Shown here piece after piece: positions 31,987 to 59,677 of a stretch of 64,000 nt of DNA. The notes under the pieces were generated by a model. It made no database searches. It saw nothing but the letters and a program-made list of their open reading frames with translations, and was not told the DNA's origin. Where the stretch lies: positions 434,001 through 498,000 of the forward strand of contig NZ_CP061295.1 of NCBI RefSeq assembly GCF_018687535.1, written 5' to 3'. A program made the position numbers and the translations under genes. Within the stretch, counting starts at the first letter, position 1. Every line of letters starts with the position of its first letter. Origin of the DNA: Polynucleobacter sp. MWH-S4W17 (GTDB lineage: Bacteria > Pseudomonadota > Gammaproteobacteria > Burkholderiales > Burkholderiaceae).

Positions 31987-33018
31987 TTAGAGTTTTGGTG
32001 GTGACGAGCTAGATTCACGAATAACCAAATTAACACTTGTTTTGATTTTTCTGGGAAGGTTATCCACACCCTTAATTTGGGAAATGAGGTGATTGGCCGC
32101 TTGCGCCCACATACCTATAGCATCTATGTGGATAGTGCTCAGACTGGGTGTGATGTGTTGAGAAATTTCTAAGTCATCAAATCCAATGATTGATAAGTCC
32201 TTTGGAATTCTCAGCCCTTGCTTTTTAGCCTCAAGCAACGCGCCCAGAGCTAAAACGTCTTGACCGCAAATAATTGCAGTGATTTTGGGATTGTTGAGGA
32301 GCAATTTTTTTAATCCGAGACGCGCCTCATGTAAACCATAAGCACACTCCACTATCACATCGCTTTTGATCTGAATTTTCTTCTCAGTCAAAAGCTCAAT
32401 AACTCCATCAACCCGGTCTCTAGCACGATCATTGTACGTAGTGATGCCTGCCAATATCCCAAAATGTTTATGTCCAAGAGAGAGTAGGTGCTGAACCCCG
32501 GGCTTGATTGCCTCTCGATTATCAAAGCCGGAGGCGTACCCGTTATAGGGTGTGGATAATGAGCCCACGTGTATATATGGAATATTGCGAGTTTTCAGAA
32601 GTTTTAATGCTTCGCGCCGCTGGCTAACGCCAAAGAGGGCAATACCTTCAACGCCTCGAGTCAGTAGGTTGGTTATTTGGTTTGCTTCGATCTCGGGATC
32701 GTAGTTACTGCTTGCTACTAAAAGTTGGTGCCCAGATTGATTTAGTTGACGTTGAAACTCTGCAAGCCCTTGTGCAAAAATTGCATTGTCAAGAGTGGGA
32801 ACAATTGCGCCAATAGTCCCAGAGCGCTTAAGCATCAATGCGCGAGCCCCAGCATTCGGTATGTACCCCAATTTTTTAATAACACCACTAATTTTTTCTT
32901 TTAGCTCGGCGCTAACTGCATCTGGATTATTTAAGGCTCTGGAGACGGTTGCGGTAGAAACTTTTGCTGCAGCCGCTACATGAACTATGGTGATAGAGCC
33001 AATTTTATTTTTCATCAA
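31987..33018 (-). CDS. LacI-family transcriptional regulator of the sulfonate importer and hps genes
   Basis: A 343-residue LacI/GalR protein. The HTH TIVHVAAAAKVSTATVSRALNN and hinge region PNAGARALM at residues 10-65 are followed by a periplasmic-binding-like effector domain (GVEGIALFGVS, VDGVIELL, ALGALLEAKKQG, PKDLSIIGFDD, SLSTIHID). It is divergent from the ABC importer, and LacI-type operators lie at 33087 and 36623. This suggests control of both importer and dehydrogenase genes. The effector is probably the imported sulfonate or an intermediate (inference). Confidence 0.88.
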   Translation of the reverse strand: MMKNKIGSITIVHVAAAAKVSTATVSRALNNPDAVSAELKEKISGVIKKLGYIPNAGARALMLKRSGTIGAIVPTLDNAIFAQGLAEFQRQLNQSGHQLLVASSNYDPEIEANQITNLLTRGVEGIALFGVSQRREALKLLKTRNIPYIHVGSLSTPYNGYASGFDNREAIKPGVQHLLSLGHKHFGILAGITTYNDRARDRVDGVIELLTEKKIQIKSDVIVECAYGLHEARLGLKKLLLNNPKITAIICGQDVLALGALLEAKKQGLRIPKDLSIIGFDDLEISQHITPSLSTIHIDAIGMWAQAANHLISQIKGVDNLPRKIKTSVNLVIRESSSSPPKL

Positions 33019-33076
33019 AACCTAAGGGAAAGCCCTAGTCAATTTCAGTTGGTGGTGTTAATTTTGCAAGTAATTT

Positions 33077-33889
33077 ATGGTTAGAATGAAAGCGCTTACA
33101 TTTTATTTATTTTATGAGGAATTGGAAATTTTTAGCAAGCTTTTATCCTTCTTTTTGTTCTGTGCGATTCTGCTACTCGCTTGGTTTGGGCTGACAGAGT
33201 GGACAGGCACAATCTCAATTGCTAGATTTCCATCGCCCACAGAAACCTGGAATTCTTTCAAAATTATTGCATTGCAGGGCTATGGCAATGGCAAGCTTCA
33301 TCAGCATGTCCTACAAAGCGTGATCTTAGTTACCTCCGGATTTTTGGTTTCTTCCTCGTTGGGAATCCTGCTGGGGATTCTGATGGGTGCCAATAAGAAA
33401 ATTGAAGCTTTCGTCAATCCAATATTTTTAACCTTGAGGCCAATACCCCCGTTAGCGTGGATTCCTTTGGCTATTGTTTGGTTGGGGCTTGGTAACTCCG
33501 CTAAGGTAATGGTGATTTATGTAGCAGCCTTTGTGCCGGCAGTGATTAATAGCTTCACTGGCGTTAGATCAATAGAGGTGCCGCAGCGAGAAGCTGCTGC
33601 TATGTTGGGTATTGGCCGTTTTGCTTACTATCGCGAAGTATTAATCCCTGGCGCATTGCCACTTATTTTTACTGGCTTACGCCTATCCCTTCAGGCATCC
33701 TGGACCACATTGGTTGCGGCAGAATTGGTCGGTGCAACTTTAGGCTTGGGGTCGATCCTAAATCAAGCGGCTCAAGATATTAATCCGGCAATGATTATGG
33801 TGGGCATGATTAGCGTAGCGATTTCTGGTTGGTTGATGACCCAGATATTGGCTAAGGCTGAGCGCTATGCCATGCCTTGGAGAGCGTAA
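33077..33889 (+). CDS. ABC transporter permease, SsuC/TauC-like (first)
   Basis: Up to 270 residues, with about six membrane segments. EAAAMLGIGRFAYYREVLIPGALP is the EAA loop that contacts the ATPase. LRPIPPLAWIPLAIVWLGLG is typical of the nitrate/sulfonate/taurine group. The start is uncertain: ATG 33077 and 33086 lie in or before the LacI-type operator, and neither has a ribosome site. TTG 33122 is possible but its AGGA is too close. It is the first gene of a permease-permease-ATPase-binding protein set, which is unusual in having two different permeases. Confidence 0.85.
   Translation: MVRMKALTFYLFYEELEIFSKLLSFFLFCAILLLAWFGLTEWTGTISIARFPSPTETWNSFKIIALQGYGNGKLHQHVLQSVILVTSGFLVSSSLGILLGILMGANKKIEAFVNPIFLTLRPIPPLAWIPLAIVWLGLGNSAKVMVIYVAAFVPAVINSFTGVRSIEVPQREAAAMLGIGRFAYYREVLIPGALPLIFTGLRLSLQASWTTLVAAELVGATLGLGSILNQAAQDINPAMIMVGMISVAISGWLMTQILAKAERYAMPWRA
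33087..33100. promoter_or_regulatory. LacI-type operator at the ABC importer
   Basis: TGAAAGCGCTTACA, one mismatch from the perfect palindrome TGTAAGCGCTTACA found at 36623. The central GCGC with flanking AAG/CTT is typical of LacI/GalR operators. It lies between the regulator and importer genes, overlapping the first ATG codons available to the permease. A TAGAAT hexamer ends at its left edge. Confidence 0.7.
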
Positions 33890-34674
33890 TGGCACGTCAA
33901 GAACGCTTAAATCAAAGTGAGTTTTTATTGTGGACGGGACTAGGCATTACGAGTTTTATTGGGATTTGGTATCTCTCGGCGTTGCTGGGTGTAGTTCCAA
34001 AGCAGTTTCTTCCGGCGCCACATGAAGTTTTGCTGAAGTTTATTCACCTGCTAAACGAGCCATTTTCTGGCTACACCTTATTGGCGCATATTGCTTCAAG
34101 TTTTCAGCGCTTTTTATATGGATTTCTATTGGCGGTAGTGATTGGGGTGCCTTTGGGATTGTTGATGGCTTTATCCAAGTATGCAAATCAACTGATCACG
34201 CCATTTTTTGAAAGTATTCGCTTTGTCGCGCCAATTGCTTGGGTTCCATTTGCTGCTCTTTGGTTTGGAACAGGTATCGGTGGTCCAGTATTGGTGATTT
34301 TTATGGGGGCATTTCCTCCGGTTTTAATTAATACTTATCGCGGCGCAATTCACGTAGATAAAAAATACCTTGAAGCAGCCAGAATGCTTGGGGCAGGTAA
34401 GTTGCGCTTGATGACCGAAGTCTTATTTCCCGCGGCTATTCCATCCATCATTGCTGGTCTGCGGATTTCAGCAGGCTTAGGTTGGCAATCCTTGGTTGGC
34501 GCTGAACTTATTGTTGCTTCAAGCGGTGTTGGCTACATGATGGTTAAAGGTCAAGCAAGTATTCAGACCGATATTGTGATGAGCGGCATGATTGCAATTG
34601 GTCTGATTGGTTTATTGATTGATGTGCTTTTAAGGCAGGCTGAAAAGTTCGCTGTTCACTATAGAGAAATTTGA
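33889..34674 (+). CDS. ABC transporter permease, SsuC/TauC-like (second)
   Basis: 261 residues from ATG 33889, which overlaps the preceding stop as TAATG; the frame is open upstream to TTG 33877 but the overlap start is more natural. It has six membrane segments, FRFVAPIAWVPF-type residues before the loop, and the EAA loop EAARMLGAGKLRLMTEVLFP. It presumably forms a heterodimer with the upstream permease. The ATPase gene follows after three bases. Confidence 0.9.
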   Translation: MARQERLNQSEFLLWTGLGITSFIGIWYLSALLGVVPKQFLPAPHEVLLKFIHLLNEPFSGYTLLAHIASSFQRFLYGFLLAVVIGVPLGLLMALSKYANQLITPFFESIRFVAPIAWVPFAALWFGTGIGGPVLVIFMGAFPPVLINTYRGAIHVDKKYLEAARMLGAGKLRLMTEVLFPAAIPSIIAGLRISAGLGWQSLVGAELIVASSGVGYMMVKGQASIQTDIVMSGMIAIGLIGLLIDVLLRQAEKFAVHYREI

Positions 34675-34677
34675 TTT

Positions 34678-35475
34678 ATGGCAGATATTGTTTTCGATTC
34701 AGTAGAGCGCAGCTTTAAACAAGGCGGCAAAGAGTTTTTGGCCGTAGGCGGTGTTGACCTAACTGTTAAAGACAAAGAGTTTGTTGCGATCGTTGGGCCA
34801 TCTGGTTGTGGAAAGACCACTTGCTTACGCATGGTCGCTGGCCTTGAAATGCCAAGCAAAGGGCGTGTTCTCGTTGGCGGCAAAGAAGTAAAAGGACCTG
34901 GACCAGACCGTGCCGTAGTCTTTCAGCAATTCGCTTTATTTCCATGGAAAACAGTTCAGGAGAATATTGAGTTTGGCCTGAAATCCATGAGTATGAGTGC
35001 GACTGATAAGCGAGATAAGACTGCCCGTTTGATTTCTCTTATGGGGTTAGAGGGTTACGAGCAGGCATACCCCCATCAATTATCTGGCGGTATGCAGCAG
35101 CGCGTAGCTATTGCGCGTGCCTACGTTCTAGAGCCAGAAGTGTTGTTGATGGATGAGCCATTCGGCGCTTTGGATGCTCAAACTCGAGTGGTGATGCAGG
35201 AAGAGCTTGTAAGGCTTGCTCGCAAGAACCCTAAAACTGTCTTATTTATCACCCACGCTGTTGAAGAGGCGGTGTATCTCGCAGATCGCGTTGTGGTCAT
35301 GTCAAGAAGGCCTGGTCTGATTCGGGATGTGATCGAGATTAAGCCCATTCGTGAAAAAGAAGGTTGGGATACGCATTCTCGGATTGAAGATGTAATGGAT
35401 TTGAGTTCATTTGTGCAGTTACGTAGTCAGATTTGGAAGTTGTTACGCGAGCAAAACCTGGGTGTTGATCATTGA
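34678..35475 (+). CDS. ABC transporter ATP-binding protein, SsuB/TauB-like
   Basis: A 265-residue ATPase. Walker A GPSGCGKTT, Q-loop FQQFALFPWKTV, signature LSGGMQQRVAIARA, Walker B VLLMDEPFGALD and switch His in FITHAVEEAVYLADRV are all intact. The FPWKTV segment after the Q-loop is typical of the nitrate/taurine/sulfonate importers. It energises the two upstream permeases and is followed after 31 bases by the binding protein. Confidence 0.95.
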   Translation: MADIVFDSVERSFKQGGKEFLAVGGVDLTVKDKEFVAIVGPSGCGKTTCLRMVAGLEMPSKGRVLVGGKEVKGPGPDRAVVFQQFALFPWKTVQENIEFGLKSMSMSATDKRDKTARLISLMGLEGYEQAYPHQLSGGMQQRVAIARAYVLEPEVLLMDEPFGALDAQTRVVMQEELVRLARKNPKTVLFITHAVEEAVYLADRVVVMSRRPGLIRDVIEIKPIREKEGWDTHSRIEDVMDLSSFVQLRSQIWKLLREQNLGVDH

Positions 35476-35506
35476 TTTACTTTTGTAATGTCTGAAGGAG
35501 ATAAAA

Positions 35507-36571
35507 ATGCAATTTAAAAAATCATTAGCAAGTATTTTGGGGGCAACGGTACTGGCAGCAGCAAGTGTTGGTAATGTCTATGCGCAAGCAAAGCCTGCAT
35601 TAACCGAGATTAAAGTGAGCTATCAGCCTGCTTTGTATTGGGCACTTCCATTTTTTGTGGCAACAGAAAAAAACTGGTGGGGTGAATTGGGCCTTAAACC
35701 AGAATTTAGTACTTTCCCTGCTGGCGTTCCACAAATTGCGGCATCTGCCTCTAAGTCATGGGATGTAGGTGGCACTGGATCAGTTCCTGCTGTATTGGGT
35801 TATGTCCGCTTTGGCATTAAAACCATCGGATTGAGTAATGATGAGTCAGCAGGCAATGCCTTGTTGGCTACTGGTAAAGCTGCAGAGGCATTCGCAGCCA
35901 ATCCTCAGTCATTGAAAGGGCAAACCATTGTGTTGACTGGTAACTCCACTGGAGATTACGCAGTTCAATCTTGCCTCAAGAAATATGGTTTAGCTAAGAC
36001 TGATGTTGTTATTAAGAATATGGGTCAGGGCGAAATTATTTCTGCCATGTCATCGGGTAACGCTGACTTTGGCGGCTTGTGGGCACCAAATATTTATACG
36101 CTCGAAGAGAAGGCTGGAGCTAAGGTCATCTGCAGCGGTAAAGATGGCGGCGCTTTTGTTCCTGGCGCTTTGATTGTGCGCGGTGATTATGCAAAAGAGA
36201 ATCCACAAAATGTGGCTAAGTTCTTAGCTGTGTATTTACGTGCTTGGAAGTGGATGAATGCTAATAAGCCACAAGCAATTGCAATGATGAAAAAGTTCTA
36301 TGAGCAGGGCGGCGTCACAATTTCTGAAGCTTCAATGAAGAAAGAGTTTGATACTCGCCCTAACTATGACTTGGCAACTGAGTTGAAGATTATGGATAAC
36401 TCTAAGGGCCCATCACAAGTAGATGGCTGGTTTAATTCTATTGCCGCCTTTATGCAATCAACTGGCGCCATCCAAACTGTACCGCCAGCAAATGAATACA
36501 TCACTGATGAATTCATGAAGATGGTGAATGCAGATAAAAAACTGCGTGATTTTGCAAACAACTCTAAGTAG
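35507..36571 (+). CDS. ABC transporter substrate-binding protein, NitT/TauT family
   Basis: A 354-residue periplasmic protein with signal peptide (ILGATVLAAASVGNVYAQA, cleavage near AQA). TEIKVSYQPALYWALPFFVA, KNWWGELGLKPEF and WDVGGTGSVPAVLG match the sulfonate/taurine-type binding proteins. Given the adjoining hpsN, the ligand is probably 2,3-dihydroxypropanesulfonate or a related C3 sulfonate (inference from context). A ribosome site GAAGGAG precedes the ATG. A long hairpin follows the gene. Confidence 0.9.
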   Translation: MQFKKSLASILGATVLAAASVGNVYAQAKPALTEIKVSYQPALYWALPFFVATEKNWWGELGLKPEFSTFPAGVPQIAASASKSWDVGGTGSVPAVLGYVRFGIKTIGLSNDESAGNALLATGKAAEAFAANPQSLKGQTIVLTGNSTGDYAVQSCLKKYGLAKTDVVIKNMGQGEIISAMSSGNADFGGLWAPNIYTLEEKAGAKVICSGKDGGAFVPGALIVRGDYAKENPQNVAKFLAVYLRAWKWMNANKPQAIAMMKKFYEQGGVTISEASMKKEFDTRPNYDLATELKIMDNSKGPSQVDGWFNSIAAFMQSTGAIQTVPPANEYITDEFMKMVNADKKLRDFANNSK

Positions 36572-36582
36572 TCGATAAAACA

Positions 36583-38737
<2,155 letters not shown>

Positions 38738-38748
38738 GGATCGTAATT

Positions 38749-39753
38749 ATGAAAGCCCTGGTCTATACACAGCCAAATGAAATGCAGATCTTAGATCGTC
38801 CTTATCCTTCGCTAGATGCTGAGGAGGTGGTGCTCAAGATTGAGTCAGTAGGTATTTGCGGTAGTGATATGCATGCCTTTCATGGCCATGACCCAAGAAG
38901 AAAACCAGGTTTAGTTTTAGGGCATGAATTTGCTGGCACCATTGCTGATACCAGCTCTTTGCTTTTCACTAAGGGGCAGAGAGTTACAGGCAATCCATTG
39001 ATTACTTGTGGCCACTGCGAATATTGTCTGCAGGGAAGAAATAATTTGTGCGCCAATCGCACCATGGTGGGGATGACAAGACCAGGAGCTTTTGCTGAAT
39101 ACATGAGTATTCCTGCGAGCTCACTGATTGCCATTCCTGAAGGTCTTAGTCTGGATGCTGCTGCATTGACTGAGCCAGCAGCCACTGCTGTTCATGCAAT
39201 TAACTTATCAATGCGAGCCCTTCAAAGACCCATTCAAGAATGTCATGTTTTGATATTGGGTGGTGGCGCTATAGGAATGCTTTCTGCGCTGCTCTTGAAG
39301 CATTACGGGGTTGATGATTTAACGGTTGCCGAAGTAAACCCATTGCGTAGAAAAGCTATTGAGCAACATGTTGGCTGCAAGACACTCAATCCCATAGACG
39401 AAAAAATTACTGAGAATTCTGTTGAGTTTGTGATGGATTGTGTTGGTGCTGTAGTTACTCGTAACACTGCACTGGCTGCTGTAAAGCCGGGCGGTGTGAT
39501 GATGCATGTAGGTCTTCAGGATTGGGCTAGCGAAATTGATATGAGAAAGCTTACGCTTGCTGAAATCACGCTGCTTGGAACCTATACCTACTCCACGGTT
39601 GATCTTCAAGCCACCGTCAATTTGCTCGCTCGCAATGCGTTTGGCGATTTGTCTTGGGTAGAAATGCGGTCTTTAGATGATGGGCCTCAAGCCTTTAGTG
39701 ACTTACATGCCGGAAAAACAGCTGCTGCAAAAGTTCTCCTAAAACCGTTTTAA
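38749..39753 (+). CDS. Zn-dependent alcohol dehydrogenase (HpsO/HpsP-type candidate)
   Basis: A 334-residue medium-chain dehydrogenase. Catalytic-Zn residues are in GICGSDMHAFHG and GHEFAG; the structural-Zn Cys are in CGHCEYCLQGRNNLC. The coenzyme motif is LGGGAIGML. The MDR family includes threonine and sorbitol dehydrogenases that oxidise secondary alcohols, which fits C2 oxidation of DHPS. It follows the SDR by 11 bases in the hps operon. Confidence 0.82.
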   Translation: MKALVYTQPNEMQILDRPYPSLDAEEVVLKIESVGICGSDMHAFHGHDPRRKPGLVLGHEFAGTIADTSSLLFTKGQRVTGNPLITCGHCEYCLQGRNNLCANRTMVGMTRPGAFAEYMSIPASSLIAIPEGLSLDAAALTEPAATAVHAINLSMRALQRPIQECHVLILGGGAIGMLSALLLKHYGVDDLTVAEVNPLRRKAIEQHVGCKTLNPIDEKITENSVEFVMDCVGAVVTRNTALAAVKPGGVMMHVGLQDWASEIDMRKLTLAEITLLGTYTYSTVDLQATVNLLARNAFGDLSWVEMRSLDDGPQAFSDLHAGKTAAAKVLLKPF

Positions 39754-39773
39754 ATAATCACGGGTTACTCAGT

Positions 39774-40922
39774 ATGCAATTTGTCTTTCATTCCACACCT
39801 TCTATTTTTGTAGAAAGAGGCGGCTCAGCCAATCTTGCAAAAAAAATTCTGGAACGAGGCGGCAAATCTGTCTTAATTGTTACGGACCCCGGCGTTCTTT
39901 CTGCGGGCTTGCTAGATAAAGCGCTGCCCCAATTTAAAGAGTTAAAGCTCCCATTTCAGATTTTTTCCGATGTTGAGGCGGATCCCCCGGTTCCTGTAAT
40001 TAATCAAGCGATGAAGGTCGCGCAGGACTGTAAAGCGGATTTCATTGTGGGCTTTGGTGGCGGTAGCTCGATGGATGTGGCCAAACTTGTTGCTTTGTTA
40101 AGTCCCGGTACGGAAAATCTTGCTGACATATATGGCATTGGAATGGCCAAAGGACCAAGATTGCCTTTGATCCTGGTTCCTACAACTGCTGGTACGGGTT
40201 CTGAGGTAACACAAAGCTCTGTAGTGACTGTGAGTGAAAGTGAAAAGAAGGGTGTTCTCTCACCACATCTATTGCCAGATTTGGCGATATTGGATGCAGA
40301 GTTAACGCTTGGCTTGCCGGCCCACGTCACAGCCGCTACAGGAATAGATGCGATGGTCCATGCTATTGAGGCATATACAACCAAGCATCTAAAAAACCCG
40401 ATGTCCGATTGCGTAGCCAAAGAGGCGCTGCGTTTACTTTCAGGAAACCTTCATAAAGCCGTTAACTCTGGAAACGATATTGTTGCGCGTGAAAACATGT
40501 TACTCGGCGCCTGCCTTGGAGGTATGGCATTTACCAATGCGCCAGTGGCAGGAGTTCATGCATTGGCCTATCCGATTGGCGCAAGATTTCATGTGCCTCA
40601 TGGCTTATCTAATTCCTTAATGTTGGCCCCGGTAATTCGCTTCAATATTGAAGTTGCACATTCTATGTATTCAGAACTCGGACAGATAATTAAACCAGGC
40701 CTCAAGGGTACAACTATCGAGCAGGCAAATGGATTGGCTGAGTATTTAGGCGGACTTGCTGGTGAGCTCGGTTTACCACAGCATTTAGTCGAGGTCGGCA
40801 TTACAGAAAGTGATGTTGACCAGTTAGCTAAGGATGCCATGTTACAAACCCGCCTCCTAAGCAACAGTCCACGTGAGATCACGCTAAGTGATGCTGCTGC
40901 TCTATATCGAGAGGCGCTATAG
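39774..40922 (+). CDS. Iron-containing alcohol dehydrogenase
   Basis: A 382-residue group III dehydrogenase. The NAD(P) motif GFGGGSSMDVAK, PTTAGTGSEVTQ, metal ligands in GIDAMVHAIEAY and AGVHALAYPIGARFHVPHG are present. Its place at the end of the hps operon suggests action on sulfolactaldehyde or DHPS, or on a related aldehyde (inference). It is not one of the three dehydrogenases described for the pathway. Its last six bases overlap the convergent LysR gene. Confidence 0.85.
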   Translation: MQFVFHSTPSIFVERGGSANLAKKILERGGKSVLIVTDPGVLSAGLLDKALPQFKELKLPFQIFSDVEADPPVPVINQAMKVAQDCKADFIVGFGGGSSMDVAKLVALLSPGTENLADIYGIGMAKGPRLPLILVPTTAGTGSEVTQSSVVTVSESEKKGVLSPHLLPDLAILDAELTLGLPAHVTAATGIDAMVHAIEAYTTKHLKNPMSDCVAKEALRLLSGNLHKAVNSGNDIVARENMLLGACLGGMAFTNAPVAGVHALAYPIGARFHVPHGLSNSLMLAPVIRFNIEVAHSMYSELGQIIKPGLKGTTIEQANGLAEYLGGLAGELGLPQHLVEVGITESDVDQLAKDAMLQTRLLSNSPREITLSDAAALYREAL

Positions 40923-48699: not shown

Positions 48700-48700
48700 T

Positions 48701-51381: not shown

Positions 51382-51411
51382 AAAAAAGCCACTTATCTAC
51401 GTGGCTTTTTT
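51382..51411 (-). terminator. Terminator between two Bug genes
   Basis: AAAAAAGCCAC near 51382-51392 and GTGGCTTTTTT 51401-51411 form an 11-bp stem around an 8-base loop. It lies just after the stop of the Bug gene at 51417 on the reverse strand, so that gene is a separate unit from the run that starts at 51348. Confidence 0.85.
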
Positions 51412-51416
51412 ATTTC

Positions 51417-52403
51417 TTACTGGGCGCTAATATTGCGACCCTTGATCACCTTATCCCAAACAACTGACTCGGCTTTTACTTGCGATTCAAATTCTTTCTG
51501 ATTATTAACTACTGCAGTTAAGCCATTCAAATCTAAACTGGCTTTTAGGGCTTCAGAGCTAACGGCTTTAACAGTGGCAGCATAGATCTTCTCTGTAATT
51601 GCATTGGGTGTTCCAGCTGGCGCGATTAATCCAAACCAACCAGTTGACTCGAAACCAGGAATGCCTGCTTCCGAAACAGTTGGAACATCAGGTAATTGTT
51701 TTGAGCGTTTTGAGCTTGTTACAGCCAATGGTTTAATTTGACCTGATTTGGCAAAGCCTGTTGCGGCTGTTAAGTTACCAACCATAAAGTCAATTTGACC
51801 TGCTACCAAGTCATTGATCGCAGCGGATTCTCCCTTGTAAGGCACGTGAGTTGCTGGGATGTTTGCGGAATAAGTCAAATTCTCTGCTGCCATGTGAACC
51901 TGGCTGCCAATACCTGCAGAACCAAAATTGAGATCTTTGGTTTTTGCATAAGCAATGAATTCAGCAAGATTTTTAACTGGCAATTTGGTACTTACCGAAA
52001 CCAACATCGGACCACTGGCTACATTGGTAATGTAGACAAAGTCCTTGGCATAGTTCACTGGTAATTTCTTATAGAGAAAGGGGTTTACCGTCAGCATGCT
52101 TCCGGATGCAAGCATGATGGTGTAGCCATCAGCAGGTGATTGCGCTACAAATTCAGCAGCAATATTTCCTCCTGCACCTGGTTTATTTTCTACAATCACA
52201 TTTTGACCAAGGTCTTTAGTGAGTTGCTGGGCCAGTAGGCGCCCCAGAATATCAGTGGTGCCACCTGCGGCAAAAGGAATAATAAGTTTGATGGGTTTTG
52301 TTGGCCAGTTTTGCGCCATAGCTAAAGGCGATGTGAGTAGGGCAAGTGCGCCCGCAATCAATGCAATTTTTTTCCCTAGCTTGCTGATGTGTTGCTTAAA
52401 CAT
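51417..52403 (-). CDS. Bug/TctC-family binding protein (second in island)
   Basis: 328 residues from ATG 52403, which has GGAGAAAG upstream; the longer frame to 52433 places that site inside the coding part. The signal peptide is GALALLTSPLAMAQ. WPTKPIKLIIPFAAGGTTDILGR, PGAGGNIAAEFVAQSPADGYT and VPTVSEAGIPGFEST are typical Bug segments. It is divergent from the slcC-comC-suyAB operon, suggesting sulfolactate as ligand, as for TctC-type SlcH in Chromohalobacter (inference). Confidence 0.9.
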   Translation of the reverse strand: MFKQHISKLGKKIALIAGALALLTSPLAMAQNWPTKPIKLIIPFAAGGTTDILGRLLAQQLTKDLGQNVIVENKPGAGGNIAAEFVAQSPADGYTIMLASGSMLTVNPFLYKKLPVNYAKDFVYITNVASGPMLVSVSTKLPVKNLAEFIAYAKTKDLNFGSAGIGSQVHMAAENLTYSANIPATHVPYKGESAAINDLVAGQIDFMVGNLTAATGFAKSGQIKPLAVTSSKRSKQLPDVPTVSEAGIPGFESTGWFGLIAPAGTPNAITEKIYAATVKAVSSEALKASLDLNGLTAVVNNQKEFESQVKAESVVWDKVIKGRNISAQ

Positions 52404-52577
52404 GCTTACTTTCTCCGGTGTTAATTTGATCAAAATATCTTATCTGCATTTGCATCTAAAAATTCGTGAGATCTCAATTTATTAGTTATAAGCTTATGTA
52501 TTACCAGTGTCTCCTCCATCCTGGTGTTGCGCAATCTCTTTCGTAATTGCACCGCACAATAAAGAGGGTATTGCAAG

Positions 52578-52607
52578 ATATCTAAATCATCTATATGATC
52601 TAGATAT
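52578..52607. promoter_or_regulatory. 30-bp near-perfect palindrome overlapping the slcC start
   Basis: Pairing outward from the centre at 52592/52593, 13 of 15 base pairs match. The outer arms ATATCTA 52578-52584 and TAGATAT 52601-52607 are perfect, as are inner ATCAT/ATGAT. Its right arm includes the first two bases of the slcC ATG at 52606. It lies in the 202-base divergent gap. The GntR regulator at 56084 is the likely ligand. Confidence 0.65.
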
Positions 52608-53535
52608 GTCATCTATTTTGATCTCCGAGTTCATCACAAGTCAAGCCCTAGAAACCCTGCGTTCTCAGCATGATGTTTCTTACGAGCCAGAGTTATATAA
52701 AGATCGCCCAGCATTAATTGCTGCGATGCAAAATATTGAGGGCCTGATTGTTCGTAACCTCACCCAAGTTAATGAAGAGATATTGGTAGGCGCTCCCAAA
52801 CTGAAAGTGGTGGGGCGTCTTGGTGTTGGTCTAGAGAATATCGAGCTGCCTGCGTGCGCTAAACGCAATATCAAAGTAATCCCAGCTACCGGGGCTAATG
52901 CGGATTCAGTGGCTGAATATGTTGTTGGAGCTGCAGTTGCATTAACAAGGGGTTTTATCCCAGCTACGATTGCAACACTAAAGGGTGAGTGGCCACGCCC
53001 ACGTTTCTCTAGTTACCATGAGTTCCTAGGTAAGACCATCGGAATTGTTGGCTTTGGCAGTATCGGCAGAGTGGTGGCCAAAAAAGCCCATGCTTTTGGT
53101 TTGCAATGCTTTGCTTACGATCCAATGCTGTCTGGCAGCTCAGTCGAGCTTGACGGATTTTCAGTGCCCTTGCTTTCTTTGGGCGACCTTCTTGCAAAGA
53201 GTGATGCCGTTACTTTGCATCTACCATTTTTGCCTGAAACAAAGAATTTATTTAATGCAGCCACTTTAGATCAAATGAAAAAAGGGGGTTGCCTCATTAA
53301 TACTGCACGTGGCGGTATTGTTGATGAGAATGCGCTTGCAGAGCGTCTAAGGTCTGGTGCTATTGGCGGGGCTGCCATGGATGTATTTTTGGCAGAGCCT
53401 GCAAAAGATCTAAGTCACTTTGTTGGAATTGAAAATCTCATTCTGACTCCTCACATTGCTGGCGTTACTCACGAGAGTAATGAGCGTGTTAGTCAAATGA
53501 TTGCCGATGAAGTAAATCGTTTTTTGGGAGCTTAA
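52606..53535 (+). CDS. slcC: D-2-hydroxyacid dehydrogenase, (S)-sulfolactate dehydrogenase type
   Basis: 309 residues from ATG 52606 (MSSILISEFI), where the family begins; the frame is open upstream to 52507 but unlike the family. The NAD motif GIVGFGSIGR, the catalytic Arg in NTARGGIVDE, Glu and His in LTPHIAGVTHESNER are present. Next to comC and suyAB this matches SlcC of Chromohalobacter salexigens, which oxidises (S)-3-sulfolactate to sulfopyruvate. Sequence alone would only say phosphoglycerate dehydrogenase-like. No ribosome site precedes the ATG. Confidence 0.82.
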   Translation: MSSILISEFITSQALETLRSQHDVSYEPELYKDRPALIAAMQNIEGLIVRNLTQVNEEILVGAPKLKVVGRLGVGLENIELPACAKRNIKVIPATGANADSVAEYVVGAAVALTRGFIPATIATLKGEWPRPRFSSYHEFLGKTIGIVGFGSIGRVVAKKAHAFGLQCFAYDPMLSGSSVELDGFSVPLLSLGDLLAKSDAVTLHLPFLPETKNLFNAATLDQMKKGGCLINTARGGIVDENALAERLRSGAIGGAAMDVFLAEPAKDLSHFVGIENLILTPHIAGVTHESNERVSQMIADEVNRFLGA

Positions 53536-53536
53536 T

Positions 53537-54547
53537 GTGAACTTGTCTTATCAAAAAATGGTTGAGTTAGCATCTGCGGGGCTTATGGCAGCAGGCATTG
53601 GCGAGAAGGCAGCTTTTGAGACAGCGCAATTTTTAGCGCTTGCTGAATTAGATGGCTTGGCATCCCATGGCCTTGCACGCGTCGCGCAATATGCTGGACA
53701 TGCCAAAAATGGTCGTGTTGAGCTAGCCCCTAAAATTAAAGTGCGAGCTTTTAAAACATCGGCAGCATTGGTAGATGCATGTGATGGCCTGGCATTCCCA
53801 GCACTTCGCTTTGCTACAGACCTCTCCGTAAATTTAGCCTCTAAATCAGGCGTTGGTTTAGTGGCCGTTACCAATAGCCATCACTTTGGTGTTGCTGGGC
53901 ACTTTGTAGAAGCTGCAGCCCGAGCGGGCTATATTTCCCTCTTATTTGGTAATACACCTGCCGCCATGCCAATGGTTGGTGGCAGTAAGGCTATTTTTGG
54001 TACCAATCCACTGGCTGCGGCATTTCCAGTTGCAAAGCGTGATCCATTGGTGATTGATATGTCTTTGTCTGCTGTTGCACGTGGCAAATTGCTGGTAGCT
54101 GCCAAGAAGGGTGAATCCATTCCTGAGGGCTGGGCATTAACTGCTGATGGAAAACCTACAACAGATCCCCAAGAAGGCCTGAAGGGCTTAATGGTTCCCT
54201 TGGGCGGTGACAAGGGCGCATTACTAGCTTTGATTATTGAGCTCTTAGTTGTAGGTCTATCGGGCAGCAGATTCTCCTATGAGGCTGACTCATTCTTTGA
54301 TGCCAAAGGTAATCGCCCTCGCATTGGACAGCTGCTGCTAACCATTGATCCAGGTTTGGCAGGAAGCCAAGTATTCGCAAACAAAATGCATGATTTTCTA
54401 AAGACTTTGGCAGCGGATGCGGGAACGCGCTTGCCGGGTCAGCGCCGCTTTAAGCAGCGCGCTGTTGGATTTAAAGAAGGCGTCACTGTTTCTGATGTGG
54501 TTGTAGAAGAAATTCAGGCTGGTATTCGCCAGTCATGGGGTACTTAG
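53537..54547 (+). CDS. comC: Malate/L-lactate dehydrogenase-family (R)-sulfolactate dehydrogenase
   Basis: 336 residues from GTG 53537 with GGAG seven bases before it, one base after slcC. Family marks: LDGLASHGLARV, VTNSHHFGVAGHF (catalytic His), FGTNPLAAAFP and KGALLALIIELL. ComC reduces sulfopyruvate to (R)-sulfolactate with NADPH. With SlcC it racemises sulfolactate so that the (R)-specific lyase SuyAB can use both enantiomers. The family also includes ureidoglycolate and malate dehydrogenases, but the context is decisive. Confidence 0.85.
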   Translation: MNLSYQKMVELASAGLMAAGIGEKAAFETAQFLALAELDGLASHGLARVAQYAGHAKNGRVELAPKIKVRAFKTSAALVDACDGLAFPALRFATDLSVNLASKSGVGLVAVTNSHHFGVAGHFVEAAARAGYISLLFGNTPAAMPMVGGSKAIFGTNPLAAAFPVAKRDPLVIDMSLSAVARGKLLVAAKKGESIPEGWALTADGKPTTDPQEGLKGLMVPLGGDKGALLALIIELLVVGLSGSRFSYEADSFFDAKGNRPRIGQLLLTIDPGLAGSQVFANKMHDFLKTLAADAGTRLPGQRRFKQRAVGFKEGVTVSDVVVEEIQAGIRQSWGT

Positions 54548-54577
54548 TAGTTCAACAAGATTAAAGAGGAGAAAGTA

Positions 54578-54859
54578 ATGATCCATTTTGTCGTGCATGA
54601 GCCAGGAGATGGCGTAGGTGTAGTAGTTGTTGAAGGCGTTAAAGCTGGAGATGATTTAATTGGTTGGGTGATGGACGGAGATTTAACGCTCAATATGAAA
54701 TCTGAGAGTGATATTCCAATCGGTCACAAAATCTCATTAAATGAATTTAAGTCAGGCGATACGGTGATGAAGTATGGCGTGGACATCGGCAAGGTTGTAG
54801 CTCCCATTAAAAAAGGCGAGCACCTTCATGTCCAAAACGTAAAAACTAAGCGCTGGTAA
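54578..54859 (+). CDS. suyA: 3-sulfolactate sulfo-lyase small subunit
   Basis: A 93-residue SAF-domain protein like the small part of altronate dehydratase (UxaA). HKISLNEFKSGDTVMKYG and IGKVVAPIKKGEHLHVQNV are the characteristic strands. With SuyB it cleaves (R)-3-sulfolactate to pyruvate and sulfite. AGAGGAGAAAG precedes the ATG, the best ribosome site in this operon. It is 30 bases after comC and 41 before suyB. Confidence 0.9.
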   Translation: MIHFVVHEPGDGVGVVVVEGVKAGDDLIGWVMDGDLTLNMKSESDIPIGHKISLNEFKSGDTVMKYGVDIGKVVAPIKKGEHLHVQNVKTKRW

Positions 54860-54900
54860 TCCAGACTCTTATTCACCCATTCATTTAGAAAGAAAACAAG

Positions 54901-56073
54901 ATGATTAATTTGAAAGACGCGAGCTTCATGGGTTACCGCCGTGAAAATGGCCGCATGGGAATTCGTAATCACGTATTAGTTTTGCCTTTAGATGATTTGT
55001 CCAATGCAGCTTGCGAAGCTGTGGCAAACAACATCAAAGGAACTCAGGCTATTCCTCACTCATATGGACGCCTGCAGTTTGGTGCCGACTTGGATCTACA
55101 CTTTCGCACCTTGATTGGTACGGGTTCTAATCCAAACGTAGCCGCTGTAGTGGTAATCGGTATTGAACCGCAATGGACAAAAATTGTAGTGGATGGCATT
55201 AAAGCTTCCGGTAAGCCAGTTGAAGGTTTCTGGATTGAGGGTAATGGCGATACAGCTACGATTGCTTCTGCTAGCAAAGCTGCATACAAAATGATGAAGC
55301 ATGCCTCTAAGCAAAAGCGGGTTAAAGCACCTTTATCTGAATTATGGGTATCTACCAAGTGCGGTGAGTCTGATACAACATCTGGTTGCGGTGCTAACCC
55401 AACCGTTGGTGATGCATTTGACAAGCTCTATGGCATTGGTTCTACCTTGGTTTTCGGTGAGACTACAGAGTTAACAGGTGGCGAGCATTTGGTTGAAGCA
55501 CGTTGCCGCACTCCAGAAGTAAAGAAAAAGTTCCGCGAAATGTTTGATCGTTATCAGGATGTTATTGAGCGTCATAAAACAAGCGACTTATCTGACTCAC
55601 AGCCAACTAAAGGCAATATTGCCGGTGGATTGACTACGATTGAAGAAAAAGCCTTGGGCAATATTCAGAAGATCGGTAAGAAATGTATCGTTGATAGCGT
55701 CCTAGATAAGGGTGAAGAGCCTAAGATCCCGGGTTTGCACTTTATGGATTCCTCATCAGCTGCTGCTGAAATGGTGACCTTGTGTGCTGCCGCTGGATTT
55801 GCTGCTCACTTCTTCCCAACAGGGCAGGGCAACGTGATCGGTAATGCAATTCTTCCCGTGATTAAGATTTGCGCTAATCCGAAAACAGTTCGTACGATGG
55901 GTGAGCACATTGACGTTGATGTGTCTGGACTCTTGCGTCGTGAAGAGAATATGGATGATGCTGGTAATAAACTATTAGAGTGCCTGGTACGTACGGCTGA
56001 TGGTGAATTAACTGCTTCCGAGATTCTCGGGCACCGTGAATTCGTATTAACTCGTTTATACGAATCAGCATAA
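54901..56073 (+). CDS. suyB: 3-sulfolactate sulfo-lyase large subunit
   Basis: A 390-residue member of the altronate dehydratase large-subunit family. [20 protein letters not shown] opens the catalytic domain; metal or cluster-binding Cys are likely in [18 protein letters not shown] and the later CGAGG-like region. [14 protein letters not shown] and [21 protein letters not shown] fit the family. With suyA adjacent this is the desulfonating enzyme of the island. A sugar-acid dehydratase is much less likely in this context. Confidence 0.9.
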
Positions 56074-56083
56074 GTATTAAAGT

Positions 56084-56803
56084 ATGAAGTCCCTGACCGC
56101 TTATCAAGAGGTAAAGCAAAAGATCACCGAGGATCTGGTCAGGGGTCGATACCCTATGGGGCAGGCCTTGCCTGCTGAAAAGGATCTATCGAAAGAACTA
56201 GATGTATCTATAGGAACCCTGCGTAAAGCGGTGGACGAGTTAGTTGCTGAAGGTATTGTGGTTCGTCGTCAAGGCAGGGGTACCTATGTTGCTGAGCATG
56301 ATCTCAAGCGTTTGTTGTATTACTTTTTCCACGTTGTAAAACATAATGCCGATAAAAAGAGTCACCCCAGGGTTGATCTTGTTTCTTTAACGAGTGCTGT
56401 TGCAAATAAAGAAGAGGCTAGTAAGCTTGCAATTAAGGAAGGTGCAGCAGTATGGCGTCTAGTCAATTGCCTTTACTTAGAAAATAAATGTGTGATGATT
56501 GACCAGATCACACTTGATAAGAAACGCTTTCAGAAACTCACACGGGCTGATTACATCAATCGTGAGGGAAGTATCTATCAGCTGTATCAAATGAAATATG
56601 GACAGACCGTAGTTCGTAGTAGCGAACGTTTAAGAGCGGGGCTTGCAAGCAAGCAGCATGCTGAGTGGCTTGATATCAAGCCAGACTCACCAGTTTTAAT
56701 TATCAGAAGGATTGCGTTAGGAATTCAGGATGAGCCCTTAGAGTGGCGTGTCTCCACACTGAATACCGAACACCATGAATACTTTAGCGAATTAGTGGTC
56801 TAG
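56084..56803 (+). CDS. suyR: GntR-family (HutC-type) transcriptional regulator
   Basis: A 239-residue regulator. The N-terminal wHTH has YPMGQALPAEKDLSKELDVS, GTLRKAVDELVAEGIVVRRQGRGTYVA. From about 90 onward it is a UTRA ligand domain (EGAAVWRLVNCLYLE, YGQTVVRSSERLRAG, SPVLIIRRIALG). It lies 10 bases after suyB and probably controls this operon through the palindrome at 52578, with sulfolactate or sulfopyruvate as effector (inference). Confidence 0.88.
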   Translation: MKSLTAYQEVKQKITEDLVRGRYPMGQALPAEKDLSKELDVSIGTLRKAVDELVAEGIVVRRQGRGTYVAEHDLKRLLYYFFHVVKHNADKKSHPRVDLVSLTSAVANKEEASKLAIKEGAAVWRLVNCLYLENKCVMIDQITLDKKRFQKLTRADYINREGSIYQLYQMKYGQTVVRSSERLRAGLASKQHAEWLDIKPDSPVLIIRRIALGIQDEPLEWRVSTLNTEHHEYFSELVV

Positions 56804-56808
56804 CACTT

Positions 56809-57801
56809 ATGTACAACGCAAGTAAGCGCAATTTACCAGGGTTAATGGTCTGTTTGGTGATAGCTATGTCCACCAGCTTTCTCTCGGAAAACTATGGTGG
56901 GCCACAACTTTTATATGCGTTGTTATTGGGCCTTTCACTTCATTTTCTTTATTTAAATGAGACCGTGAAGCCAGGCATTGACTTCTGCGCAAAGACTATT
57001 TTGCGTTTGGGAGTTGCATTTTTAGGCATCCGAATTACCTTTGCTGATATTAGTGCGATAGGACTGAATACCGGTTTTATGGTGATTGTGGCCGTTGTAT
57101 TAACTGTTTTCCTTGGATTTTTGCTCGCTAAACTTTTGAAACTATCCCCAGATTTTGGATTGATAGCGGGTGGGTCGGTTGGCATATGTGGCGCTTCTGC
57201 TGCTCTTGCAGTTGCCTCGGTGTTACCAAAGTCAAAAGAAAATGAGCAATTTACTTTGCTAGTTGTAGTTGGCGTCACTGTGTTGTCGACGATTGCGATG
57301 GTGATATATCCTTTTGCATTACAGATGCTCAATGTTGGGGCGCTTTCAGCGGGGATCTTTTTGGGCGCTACCATTCATGATGTGGCTCAGGTAGTTGCTG
57401 CGGGGATGCTTTTTGGTCCTGAGGCGGGCGATGTGGCAACTGTAGTTAAGTTATTTAGAGTGGCTCTATTGCTCCCAGTAGTTTTAGTGATTTCTATTTT
57501 CTTTGGCGCTCAAAAATCTACCAATAAGTTAGGTTGGAGTAGCCTACGATTAATTCCAACATTTTTATTGGGTTTTGTATCGCTTTCTATTGTGGCCTCA
57601 ATGCAAATATTGCCGGCTACTATCACCCATCAAATTGGCGGAGTATCACGCTGGATGTTAGTCATAGCAATTGCGGCCGCTGGATTGAAAACCAATTTCC
57701 AAGAGCTGGCAAAGCTAGGTTGGCAGCCGGTATTAATGTTGGTAATTGAAACCCTATTTATTGCTATTTTTGGACTCGTATTTATCTTGTATGCATCCTA
57801 G
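56809..57801 (+). CDS. suyZ: YeiH/COG2855-family putative sulfate or sulfite exporter
   Basis: A 330-residue membrane protein with nine to ten hydrophobic segments. GGSVGICGASAALAVASVLP and GATIHDVAQVVAAGMLFG are the signature segments of this family. Members next to suyAB or cuyA are proposed exporters of the sulfite set free by desulfonation. It starts five bases after the GntR gene, inside the same operon. Transport direction is not shown by sequence. Confidence 0.88.
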   Translation: MYNASKRNLPGLMVCLVIAMSTSFLSENYGGPQLLYALLLGLSLHFLYLNETVKPGIDFCAKTILRLGVAFLGIRITFADISAIGLNTGFMVIVAVVLTVFLGFLLAKLLKLSPDFGLIAGGSVGICGASAALAVASVLPKSKENEQFTLLVVVGVTVLSTIAMVIYPFALQMLNVGALSAGIFLGATIHDVAQVVAAGMLFGPEAGDVATVVKLFRVALLLPVVLVISIFFGAQKSTNKLGWSSLRLIPTFLLGFVSLSIVASMQILPATITHQIGGVSRWMLVIAIAAAGLKTNFQELAKLGWQPVLMLVIETLFIAIFGLVFILYAS

Positions 57802-57891
57802 GCTGAAAAGAAATAGCATTTCTTTATGCATTGGCTGTATGCTTTAAAAAAATATAAGCTAATCAGTGCGTATAACGGAGGCAAAGCATTT

Positions 57892-59151
57892 ATGTCTAAA
57901 AGGGATGTATTTTCTAATCGCCGTCAATTCTTAAAATCATCCGTTGTGGCAGGTGCTAGTGTGGGTGGCGTAATAAGCGCCTCTTCTGCTTCCGCTCAAA
58001 ATCAAGAGGCTGGTTTTTTAGAAGTAGATCCTTGGACTAAAACCCAAGGATCTACTTTTGTTAACCCCCCTTATGGTTTGCCATCTAAATATGAAAAGAA
58101 TGTGGTGCGACTTCTTCCTTCGCCAGCGCCAACCTTCCTAACTGGCTCAAGAACCCCTTTGCAGAGTCTGCATGGAATTATTACCCCTAATGGCTTGGTC
58201 TTTGAGCGCCACCATGCAGGAGTTCCAGATATTAATCCCGACCTCCATAAGCTCGTAGTTCATGGAATGGTCGATCGTCCAATGATCTTCTCCATGGATG
58301 ATATTCTTCGGTTTCCATCTGAGTCCAGAGTCTATTTTCTTGAGTGCTCTGGCAACAGTGCGGCCGAGCTCAAAAAGGGTAGCAATCAAACAGTTCAGCA
58401 AATTCATGGATTGGTGTCTTGCTGCGAGTGGACTGGTGTTCGTTTATCTACAATTTTGCAAGAGTGTGGTGTGCAATCTGGGGCTAAGTGGGCATTGGCT
58501 GAAGGTGCCGATGGCGCAGCGATGACTCGCAGCATTCCAATAAATAAGATGATGGACGATGCCTTATTAGTCTACGCTCAAAATGGTGAGATGTTACGCG
58601 CAGAGCAGGGCTATCCTTTGAGATTATTTTTGCCTGGATATGAAGGCAATATGAGTATTAAGTGGCTACGCAGAATTAAATTTGGGACTGAGCCTTGGCA
58701 AACCCGTGAAGAAACTGCCGCTTATACCGATTTGCGAGCAGATGGTAAGGCGCTGCAATTTACTTTTGCAATGGAGGTTAAGTCTGTCATTACACAACCC
58801 TCAGGGATGATGAAGCTGAAATCTAAAGGTTTTTATGAAATCTCCGGTTTTGCATGGTCTGGTAATGGAAAAATTCGACGTGTTGAGGTTTCAACGGATG
58901 GCGGTAATTCGTGGAGAGAGGCAGTATTGCAGGAGCCGGTGATGGATAAATCTCTGGTGCGGTTCCGTTTTCCTTGGGTATGGGATGGTGCCCCAGCAAC
59001 ATTAATGAGTAGGGCAATAGATTCAAGCGGTGAGGTGCAGCCTTCGATGGATGCTGTTATCGCGGCTAAGAGTGCGAATACTTTTTATCACAATAACGCC
59101 ATACAACCCTGGCGTGTTGCTGCCAATGGAGAGGTTACTAATGGCCGCTAA
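57892..59151 (+). CDS. sorA: Periplasmic sulfite dehydrogenase, molybdopterin subunit
   Basis: 419 residues from ATG 57892, which has GGAGG upstream; the frame reaches back to 57826 without family similarity. A Tat signal with SNRRQFLKSS (RR at 10-11) ends near SASA. The Moco-binding Cys is C152 in YFLECSGNSA. PLRLFLPGYEGNMSIKWLRRI and the C-terminal dimerisation domain fit the SorA/SoxC branch. It oxidises sulfite to sulfate and hands electrons to the cytochrome next door. Moco supply links it to moeA-moaDE at 1.6-3.6 kb. Confidence 0.92.
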   Translation: MSKRDVFSNRRQFLKSSVVAGASVGGVISASSASAQNQEAGFLEVDPWTKTQGSTFVNPPYGLPSKYEKNVVRLLPSPAPTFLTGSRTPLQSLHGIITPNGLVFERHHAGVPDINPDLHKLVVHGMVDRPMIFSMDDILRFPSESRVYFLECSGNSAAELKKGSNQTVQQIHGLVSCCEWTGVRLSTILQECGVQSGAKWALAEGADGAAMTRSIPINKMMDDALLVYAQNGEMLRAEQGYPLRLFLPGYEGNMSIKWLRRIKFGTEPWQTREETAAYTDLRADGKALQFTFAMEVKSVITQPSGMMKLKSKGFYEISGFAWSGNGKIRRVEVSTDGGNSWREAVLQEPVMDKSLVRFRFPWVWDGAPATLMSRAIDSSGEVQPSMDAVIAAKSANTFYHNNAIQPWRVAANGEVTNGR

Positions 59152-59677
59152 TAAATTTATTAAGCTGAGCCTTTCTTTGATCTCTATTGGCATAGTGCTT
59201 GGTTGTGTCAGTGGCAATCATGTGGCTGGCCCGCTAGGTCTTGGTAGGCCAATTTCTGAAAATCAAATTCGGGCATGGGATATCGATATTGATCCAAGTG
59301 GATCAGGTTTGCCCCCTGGCTCAGGCACTGCAATTATTGGAGAAAAGTTGTATCAGCAACAGTGCGCATCTTGTCATGGAGATCAAGGGCAGGGTGGGCC
59401 GGCTAATCGTCTTGTGGGTGGTGGCGCATTGAATACGGATAAGCCTGTAAAGACTGTGGGAAGTTTTTGGCCTTATTCAACCACTATCTTTGACTATGTC
59501 AAAAGAGCGATGCCACATCAAGCGCCACAATCTTTGACCGACGACCAAGTGTATGCAGCTACCGCTTATATTCTTTATCTCAATAAGATCATTGCAAAAG
59601 ATGCGGTGATGGATGCTAAGACTTTGCCTTTGGTAAAAATGCCCAATAAGGATGGATTCATTCCTGTTGAGCGTTGA
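59141..59677 (+). CDS. sorB: Cytochrome c subunit of sulfite dehydrogenase, lipoprotein
   Basis: 178 residues from ATG 59141, chosen because GGAGAGG lies six bases upstream; it overlaps sorA by 11 bases. The signal ends in a lipobox IVLGC with C22 as lipid site. Haem c binds C75 and C78, with H79, in QQCASCHG. An axial Met is likely in AMPHQAPQ. ENQIRAWDIDIDPSG is shared with SoxD/SorB cytochromes. It receives electrons from SorA. Confidence 0.92.
   Translation: MAANKFIKLSLSLISIGIVLGCVSGNHVAGPLGLGRPISENQIRAWDIDIDPSGSGLPPGSGTAIIGEKLYQQQCASCHGDQGQGGPANRLVGGGALNTDKPVKTVGSFWPYSTTIFDYVKRAMPHQAPQSLTDDQVYAATAYILYLNKIIAKDAVMDAKTLPLVKMPNKDGFIPVER

Follow-up and report, generated by a model that had tools for sequence, protein, structure and literature searches.

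Clusters of the form slcC-comC-suyAB for the breakdown of sulfolactate are known from Chromohalobacter and Paracoccus, and passages of PMC11131964 describe the roles of the enzymes. A second type is hpsRNOUP-suyAB of Cupriavidus pinatubonensis, which acts on 2,3-dihydroxypropane-1-sulfonate (DHPS) and is described in passages of PMC11382572. Here we describe a locus related to both in a 64,000 bp stretch (the window; C1:434001-498000) of the 2,051,571-base single-contig genome of Polynucleobacter sp. MWH-S4W17. Polynucleobacter is a genus of freshwater plankton, and near-identical copies of the locus are present in other genomes of the genus, with HpsN up to 99% identical to that on named Polynucleobacter contigs. 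From sequence comparison the locus is probably a sulfonate island in three parts: a DHPS module (positions 31987-40922), a set of succinate dehydrogenase- and fumarase-like genes (the sdh/fum block) in a middle stretch of 11.5 kb (40917-52433), for which we propose the route 3-sulfopropionate to sulfoacrylate to sulfolactate, and a sulfolactate-cleaving module (52606-59677). The two outer modules match known systems, and the new element is the sdh/fum block between them.

The locus shares with C. pinatubonensis HpsN (79% identical), HpsO, HpsP and SuyB (74%), with the same end reaction predicted, although an ATP-binding cassette (ABC) importer is present in place of the major facilitator superfamily protein HpsU, and there are in addition an iron-dependent alcohol dehydrogenase, the sdh/fum block and a pair of genes for a SoxC-type enzyme and a cytochrome. 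It has slcC, comC, suyA, suyB, a GntR regulator and a YeiH-type exporter in common with the Chromohalobacter and Paracoccus cluster, but here these are coupled to sdhBDC-fumAB-sdhA and TauE. The original prediction described a contiguous DHPS and sulfolactate island; its gene inventory was right and its reading in terms of DHPS mostly right, the type of island being already known. Each gene that it named is an intact open reading frame (ORF) at roughly the position given, and the gene content supports its inventory for conversion of DHPS to sulfolactate, then to pyruvate and sulfite, and finally to sulfate. However, it missed the sdh/fum block, and the locus is more than a DHPS island; the 11.5 kb that it did not list splits the DHPS and sulfolactate halves, and these are separate modules and not a single unit, with hpsN and suyB approximately 238 and 282 kb apart in two other Polynucleobacter genomes (G004 and G129).

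The sdh/fum block is transcribed rightwards and adjoins a LysR-family regulator gene on the reverse strand (40917-41789). The genes are, in order, those for an SdhB-like iron-sulfur subunit (41814-42602; start unsettled), an SdhD-like membrane anchor (42587-42949; TIGR02968 31 bits, cut-off 41.8), an SdhC-like cytochrome b subunit (42946-43305; TIGR02970 56.5 bits, cut-off 52.3), the alpha subunit (43317-44192; TIGR00722 292 bits, cut-off 100.65) and the beta subunit (44203-44814; TIGR00723 142.2 bits, cut-off 145.15) of a class I fumarase-type hydratase, and an SdhA-like flavoprotein (44811-46532), followed by a TauE/SafE-family exporter gene (46640-47287; PF01925 89.8 bits), all on the forward strand. 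Leftwards-transcribed genes for a GlcD-like oxidase, a thiamine pyrophosphate (TPP) enzyme and two TctC proteins complete the middle stretch (see below). The subunit make-up is that of complex II (SdhABCD) together with a two-subunit class I fumarase. A canonical succinate dehydrogenase (SDH) set (sdhC, a small ORF, sdhA and sdhB) is located beside gltA elsewhere in the genome, and matches across the genus include single-chain fumarases of ~510 aa.

The SdhA-like protein falls short of the succinate dehydrogenase cut-offs (TIGR01816 350.6 bits, cut-off 727; TIGR01812 444.9 bits, cut-off 567), for which the canonical SdhA of the same genome scores 925 and 785 bits respectively, and also of that for L-aspartate oxidase (TIGR00551 362 bits, cut-off 452.75). 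The best-scoring model is the fumarate reductase TfrA, below its cut-off, and databases label the protein variously as L-aspartate oxidase, fumarate reductase or FAD-binding protein. We aligned 39 SdhA rows and compared them with E. coli FrdA, whose residue roles, including the covalent-FAD histidine and the succinate-pocket positions, we take to be as generally assigned. The motif GCTRMVQG is present in all 34 island-type rows covering the site (rows L098 and L121 do not), where FrdA and the canonical SdhA have SH-TVAAQG, such that Gly-Cys-Thr replaces Ser-His-Thr at the FAD-attaching histidine in 34 of 34. In FrdA numbering, Thr244 is replaced by Glu and the SNSL stretch by LGGNGV (SNSL to GNGV) in 36 of 36 island-type rows, whereas Arg287, His355 and Arg390 are retained, as is His232 in all rows but one. 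In a tree with long outgroup branches, 32 island-type rows form a clade of their own with 100/100 support; the motif is present in 32 of 32 clade rows and in none of the five outgroup rows. Two control relatives of ~36% identity also do not have the motif, and no suy genes are annotated near the one for which annotation is available.

Sulfolactate is the sulfonate analogue of malate, sulfoacrylate that of fumarate, and 3-sulfopropionate that of succinate. Because a complex II relative and a fumarase relative stand before SuyAB, and sulfolactate is a malate analogue, the block would be expected to convert 3-sulfopropionate through sulfoacrylate to sulfolactate. The flavoprotein, a predicted 3-sulfopropionate dehydrogenase on account of its separate clade and motifs, would take two hydrogens off 3-sulfopropionate to give sulfoacrylate, with the electrons passing to SdhB, then to SdhCD and quinone, and the two-subunit fumarase-like enzyme, a predicted sulfoacrylate hydratase from its TIGR00722 match and linkage to suyB, would add water to form sulfolactate. 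The direction of the block and its likely substrate, 3-sulfopropionate, follow from this analogy, as the other enzyme steps proposed here do from homology and context.

These three C3 sulfonates appear in the same order in a route from homotaurine to 3-sulfopropionate, sulfoacrylate and sulfolactate described in a thesis on Roseovarius nubinhibens, which is quoted in PMC11489063 for the degradation of 3-sulfopropionate via sulfoacrylate and sulfolactate; the quoting passage names no genes, and the gene set is proposed here. R. nubinhibens is not among the 120 names listed of ~8000 SdhA relatives, which is uninformative either way. In the openly licensed literature we found neither genes named for the route (searching 'sulfo-' spellings only) nor a link between Polynucleobacter and sulfolactate. 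Bilophila wadsworthia likewise uses 3-sulfopropionate and frees its sulfur but is anaerobic; passages of PMC11489063 and PMC12890257 report that it respires the compound and call the mechanism unclear. The same passages give two sources of 3-sulfopropionate: Enterococcus and other Firmicutes form it from DHPS, and Burkholderia and Cupriavidus from homotaurine. PMC11489063, in the part cited, states that bacterial degradation of 3-sulfopropionate was previously unreported, a thesis apart, and adds the Bilophila respiration. On balance, we favor the view that this sulfonate version of the steps from succinate through fumarate to malate in the tricarboxylic acid cycle, in bacteria and some haloarchaea, represents the missing genes of the 3-sulfopropionate route, filed as L-aspartate oxidase or fumarate reductase. 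If so, the route would close a gap in sulfur cycling, which the concrete gene set makes testable, would account for a second complex II and fumarase set whose fumarase is found in 83 of 186 Polynucleobacter genomes, would correct a misannotation seen across several databases, and would extend sulfonate recycling by Polynucleobacter beyond DHPS.

The sdh/fum block is a partner of the sulfolactate lyase. We compared gene order in 20 stretches of ten other Polynucleobacter genomes, and the block stays with a TctC gene (bug2), comC and suyAB where the DHPS module is absent (G081 and G184, in which lysR comes after a ferredoxin gene and the DHPS module does not intervene) or elsewhere in the genome (G004). 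One genome (G117) is without lysR and tauE. This comparison led us to reject the idea that the middle stretch is an unrelated insert. Among 186 genomes of the genus, suyB is present in 89, the island fumarase alpha gene (fumAa; rows of at least 79% identity kept) in 83, and both in 79. In an even sample of 399 genomes of the order, a fumAa-type gene is present in 51, suyB in 72, and both in 50, with 46 of 47 fumAa genomes outside Polynucleobacter having suyB. The two genes are on the same contig in 44 of the 50, within 20 kb in 43 of these and most 3-7 kb apart; the exceptions are one pair 1.9 Mb apart and six on different contigs. We read 20 of the 47 non-Polynucleobacter fumAa loci, and 13 have suyAB within the stretch; in several loci suyA-suyB and sdhB-sdhD-sdhC-fumA-fumA-sdhA run in one direction. 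A control fumarase from Roseomonas (34% identity) has no sdh or sulfonate genes beside it. In this order the block is thus nearly always with SuyAB but not the reverse, which fits an upstream feeder. The E-value limits were 1e-60 (hpsN), 1e-80 (suyB) and 1e-10 (fumAa) for the genus, 1e-90 for the phylum sample, and 1e-90 and 1e-70 for the order sample. In two suyB-positive Polynucleobacter genomes (G035 and G051) fumAa is interrupted by a stop codon, a hint that the block is decaying in places.

The block also recurs with suyAB in other lineages, where the genes are arranged differently. Laboratory strains that have it include Methylobacterium radiotolerans JCM 2831, Paracoccus versutus and Rhodococcus jostii RHA1, and the SdhA-like protein is present in Polynucleobacter asymbioticus. 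Methylobacterium plasmids have sdhBDC-fumAB-sdhA, genes for a TPP enzyme and a substrate-binding protein, TauE, and suyAB-slcC-comC; Paracoccus versutus pTAV3 has sdh/fum genes, slcC, comC, suyAB and a DHPS module with the ABC importer, with a much more divergent fumarase (32% identical); and in Rhodococcus jostii pRHL1 fumAB-sdhA-sdhB is 22 kb from suyAB. Two haloarchaeal plasmids (Natribaculum and Haloarcula) have suyAB-like genes (SuyB 34-36%), TauE, SdhB and an SdhA of the same clade (49%), with no fumarase in the stretch and an argininosuccinate-lyase-type gene instead, which scores 323 bits to argH (cut-off 279.5) and 260 bits to XcbC (NF052535, cut-off 575). The same superfamily includes XcbC1, which a passage of PMC8727900 describes as producing sulfoacrylate in bacterial coenzyme M synthesis; XcbC1 eliminates phosphate, however, and the haloarchaeal gene fits argH better. 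That one SdhA clade is accompanied by differing enzymes of fumarase-type chemistry argues for a step in which a fumarate-like acid is hydrated.

The following genes were read in plasmid records with this SdhA clade but no listed suyB: sulfite-oxidase-type genes and exporters near the block in M. nodulans and Pseudomonas MPC6; exporters, a succinate-semialdehyde dehydrogenase and a sulfolactaldehyde-reductase-like gene (324 bits, cut-off 348) in Pseudorhizobium NT-26; TauE-type and TPP genes in Sulfitobacter THAF37 and C. necator N-1; and a YeiH-type gene in P. pantotrophus. P. seriniphilus has a YeiH gene, and its suyB is on another plasmid than the block. Methylobacterium and other Burkholderiales likewise have a TPP enzyme gene close to this sdhA, and on C. 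necator N-1 pBB1 (L252) it is with glcD, two TctC protein genes and tauE, as in the window. In three loci (L213:7462-8817, L227:11342-12706 and L228:12125-13519) the sdh/fum operon contains a sulfatase-family gene (PF00884 with SGSH_C), and another adjoins hpsN in L212. Sulfitobacter THAF37 has a 3-sulfinopropanoyl-CoA desulfinase gene, above cut-off, ~9 kb from the block (L244:24742-25914).

Several observations weigh against a 3-sulfopropionate route. In the genus, ten genomes have suyB without the island fumAa and four have fumAa without suyB, including one that is 99% complete (G025); 22 of the 72 suyB genomes of the order sample are without the fumarase, and in a phylum sample of 398 genomes the block is at none of 13 non-Polynucleobacter suyB loci, the fetched flank being short for some. 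The co-occurrence p-values for the genus and order samples are uncorrected for phylogeny. Among 18 plasmid records with the SdhA clade, six carry suyB of at least 58% identity and two the suyB-like gene of 34-36%; the other ten, of which seven were read, have no suyB among the 60 records listed of 316. The 12 kb flanks in Sulfitobacter S190 contain no suyAB, TauE or YeiH gene, and the aminotransferase near the block in Sulfitobacter THAF37, the sole homotaurine-style lead, is of the aspartate type. Finally, flavin potential falls in other enzymes when the FAD-linking histidine is lost, which would be odd for a succinate-like oxidation.

The absence of this histidine, together with the TfrA match below cut-off and the fumarate reductase label in some databases, would suit a block working in reverse, with sulfolactate dehydrated to sulfoacrylate and then reduced to 3-sulfopropionate as an electron sink. 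We consider this highly improbable, as the block sits with genes for sulfite oxidation and export and with SuyAB, a competitor for sulfolactate. The many suyB loci without the block could also be taken to mean that this is an ordinary DHPS and sulfolactate island in which the sdh/fum block is a chance neighbor acting on C4-dicarboxylates or tartrate; the fumarase alpha subunit does meet generic fumarate hydratase models, and the TctC proteins belong by name to a tricarboxylate-receptor family. This is decidedly unlikely given co-occurrence in 50 of 51 genomes and proximity in 43 of 44 same-contig pairs, the recurrence of the block in alphaproteobacteria, an actinobacterium and haloarchaea with differing hydratases, the separate canonical SDH, and the clade-wide changes in the succinate pocket. 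A third alternative is that the block handles another sulfonate or sulfinate ending in sulfolactate or sulfite, such as sulfosuccinate or 3-sulfinopropionate, with the TPP enzyme acting as a decarboxylase. The TPP enzyme near sdhA in several lineages, the Sulfitobacter THAF37 desulfinase and the sulfatase-family gene within three operons are in keeping with it, although the sdh/fum genes, unlike those for the TPP enzyme and the sulfatase, are not optional in the loci read, and a simple sulfoacrylate chain requires the core alone; we regard it as unlikely.

The DHPS module begins with a LacI-family regulator gene on the reverse strand (31987-33018; LacI-type NCBIfam matches, all below cut-off), which is divergent from the ABC genes wherever both were read. 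The sulfonate-type ABC importer, which would take up DHPS, is encoded by four forward-strand genes (33077-36571; TauC/SaoP, SaoA and SsuA-type matches, all below cut-offs) for two permeases (33077-33889 and 33877-34674), an ATPase (34678-35475) and a binding protein (35507-36571). Of the 80 loci read, 20 from outside Polynucleobacter have all four of these genes ahead of hpsN, and three more have part of the set.

HpsN, an (R)-DHPS 3-dehydrogenase (36654-37967, forward strand), would use two NAD+ to convert (R)-DHPS to (R)-sulfolactate. It scores 792 bits to the crystallised C. pinatubonensis HpsN (8v35) and 499 to the (R)-DHPS dehydrogenase 8wwe, against 238.5 for the highest-scoring HisD. 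A GRY[A/S]H motif separates HpsN from HisD (a passage of PMC11382572), and GRYAH is present at residues 123-127 of this protein and absent from the HisD of the same genome. All eight zinc and catalytic residues (His126, Gln248, His251, Glu318, His319, Asp352, Lys353 and His411) are present, the numbering being shifted by one because the start Met is counted. We therefore rejected a second biosynthetic HisD as an explanation for this gene, on the scores, the motif and the separate hisD of the his operon; because hisG-hisD-hisB-hisH-hisA-hisF sit at C1:98-104 kb, HpsN is not needed as the biosynthetic enzyme, and the assignment made in the original prediction holds.

Next on the forward strand are an HpsO-type short-chain dehydrogenase/reductase, a predicted (R)-DHPS dehydrogenase (37964-38737; 260 bits to the HpsO structure 8wwf and 343 to 9pvq, a protein of the same family with no named function), and an HpsP-type zinc dehydrogenase, a predicted (S)-DHPS dehydrogenase (38749-39753; 276 bits to 8wwd, the next match being 136). 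The entry 8wwd is listed as a zinc alcohol dehydrogenase, and its sister entries 8wwe and 8wwf suggest that it is HpsP. According to a passage of PMC11131964, the C3 hydroxyl of R and S DHPS is the site at which HpsO and HpsP act, with sulfolactaldehyde as the product, and therefore the S branch needs an aldehyde dehydrogenase and racemisation of DHPS is not needed; the racemisation proposed earlier concerns sulfolactate, on which SlcC and ComC act. No aldehyde dehydrogenase was found among the island genes scanned, and an enzyme encoded outside the island likely oxidises sulfolactaldehyde. A succinate-semialdehyde-dehydrogenase-type gene at C1:263526-264908 is above one cut-off (TIGR01780), and its assignment to this step is a guess. 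The module ends with an iron-dependent alcohol dehydrogenase gene (39774-40922, forward strand), which is lactaldehyde-reductase-like (SarD 259 bits, cut-off 700), is above no curated cut-off and, in the loci read, accompanies the module in Polynucleobacter only. Genes of the hpsN type (at least 77% identity, fragments included) are present in 29 of 186 Polynucleobacter genomes; of the 24 that have hpsN as well as suyB, 15 carry the pair on a single contig, 13 of them at a distance of no more than 20 kb. At the same site Polynucleobacter sp. AP-Melu-500A-A1 (L035) carries slcC and comC along with the DHPS module, and suyB was not found in its genome (G102) at the E-value limit used.

The genes of the sulfolactate module are all on the forward strand. 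The first encodes an SlcC-type (S)-sulfolactate dehydrogenase (52606-53535) of the phosphoglycerate dehydrogenase family, for which ATG at 52606 is the likely start, instead of the GTG at 52507 listed before. It is followed by a ComC-type sulfolactate dehydrogenase (53537-54547), and neither protein reaches a curated cut-off, the best model for ComC being NF040650 (216 bits, cut-off 500). The two would interconvert the sulfolactate enantiomers through sulfopyruvate. Although slcC is beside comC and suyAB in many loci, it is absent in three genomes (G004, G101 and G107). SuyA, the small subunit of the sulfolactate sulfo-lyase (54578-54859; a 93-aa ORF), adjoins SuyB, the large subunit (54901-56073), in the loci read on that side. 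The two genes fit a UxaA-family enzyme of two subunits: SuyB has 74.4% identity over 99% to its C. pinatubonensis counterpart, and the model and structure searches gave no match to a SuyB entry. SuyAB would cleave (R)-sulfolactate to pyruvate and sulfite.

Downstream are genes for a GntR-family regulator (56084-56803), a YeiH-family putative sulfite/sulfate exporter (56809-57801; PF03601 224 bits), a SoxC-type sulfite dehydrogenase (57826-59151) and its c-type cytochrome partner (59141-59677; PF13442 and PF00034). The SoxC-type enzyme and cytochrome would oxidise sulfite, with TauE and YeiH exporting sulfite or sulfate. The pair had been called sorA-sorB, and a sulfite dehydrogenase and cytochrome pair is indeed present, but the enzyme matches the SoxC model TIGR04555 (615.8 bits, cut-off 420; 346.6 bits to 2xts) and not that for SorA (NF052245, 146 bits, cut-off 600). 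In some Polynucleobacter (L115, L119, L033, L034 and L037) a similar pair (~80% and 66-74% identical) is located between lysR and sdhB rather than behind yeiH.

Between tauE and slcC are four leftwards-transcribed genes. Three form an accessory insert (47284-51348) encoding the GlcD-like oxidase (47284-48699), the TPP enzyme, which is similar to 2-hydroxyacyl-CoA lyase and acetolactate synthase (48701-50338), and a TctC binding protein (bug1; 50356-51348). This set is optional: seven of the ten genomes are without all three genes and one (G078) has the TPP gene only, and the set is in the same place in G062 and at another spot in G107. The fourth gene, for the TctC-family substrate-binding protein bug2 (51417-52433; PF03401 241.8 bits), stays with the block.

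Composition does not mark the island as foreign, with a GC content of 0.436-0.465 in all 4-kb pieces of the window, and an origin of that kind was rejected on this ground. The variable site corresponds to window positions 31829-59968, between an isc-region ferredoxin gene (31490-31828) and fpr (59969-60772). In five of six suyB-less genomes (L234-L239) both flanks are in the fetched stretch, 4-9 kb apart. L237 has lacI-like (75%) and yeiH-like (85%) pieces at the site, and L239 has a yeiH-like gene (74%), all of which are possibly remnants.

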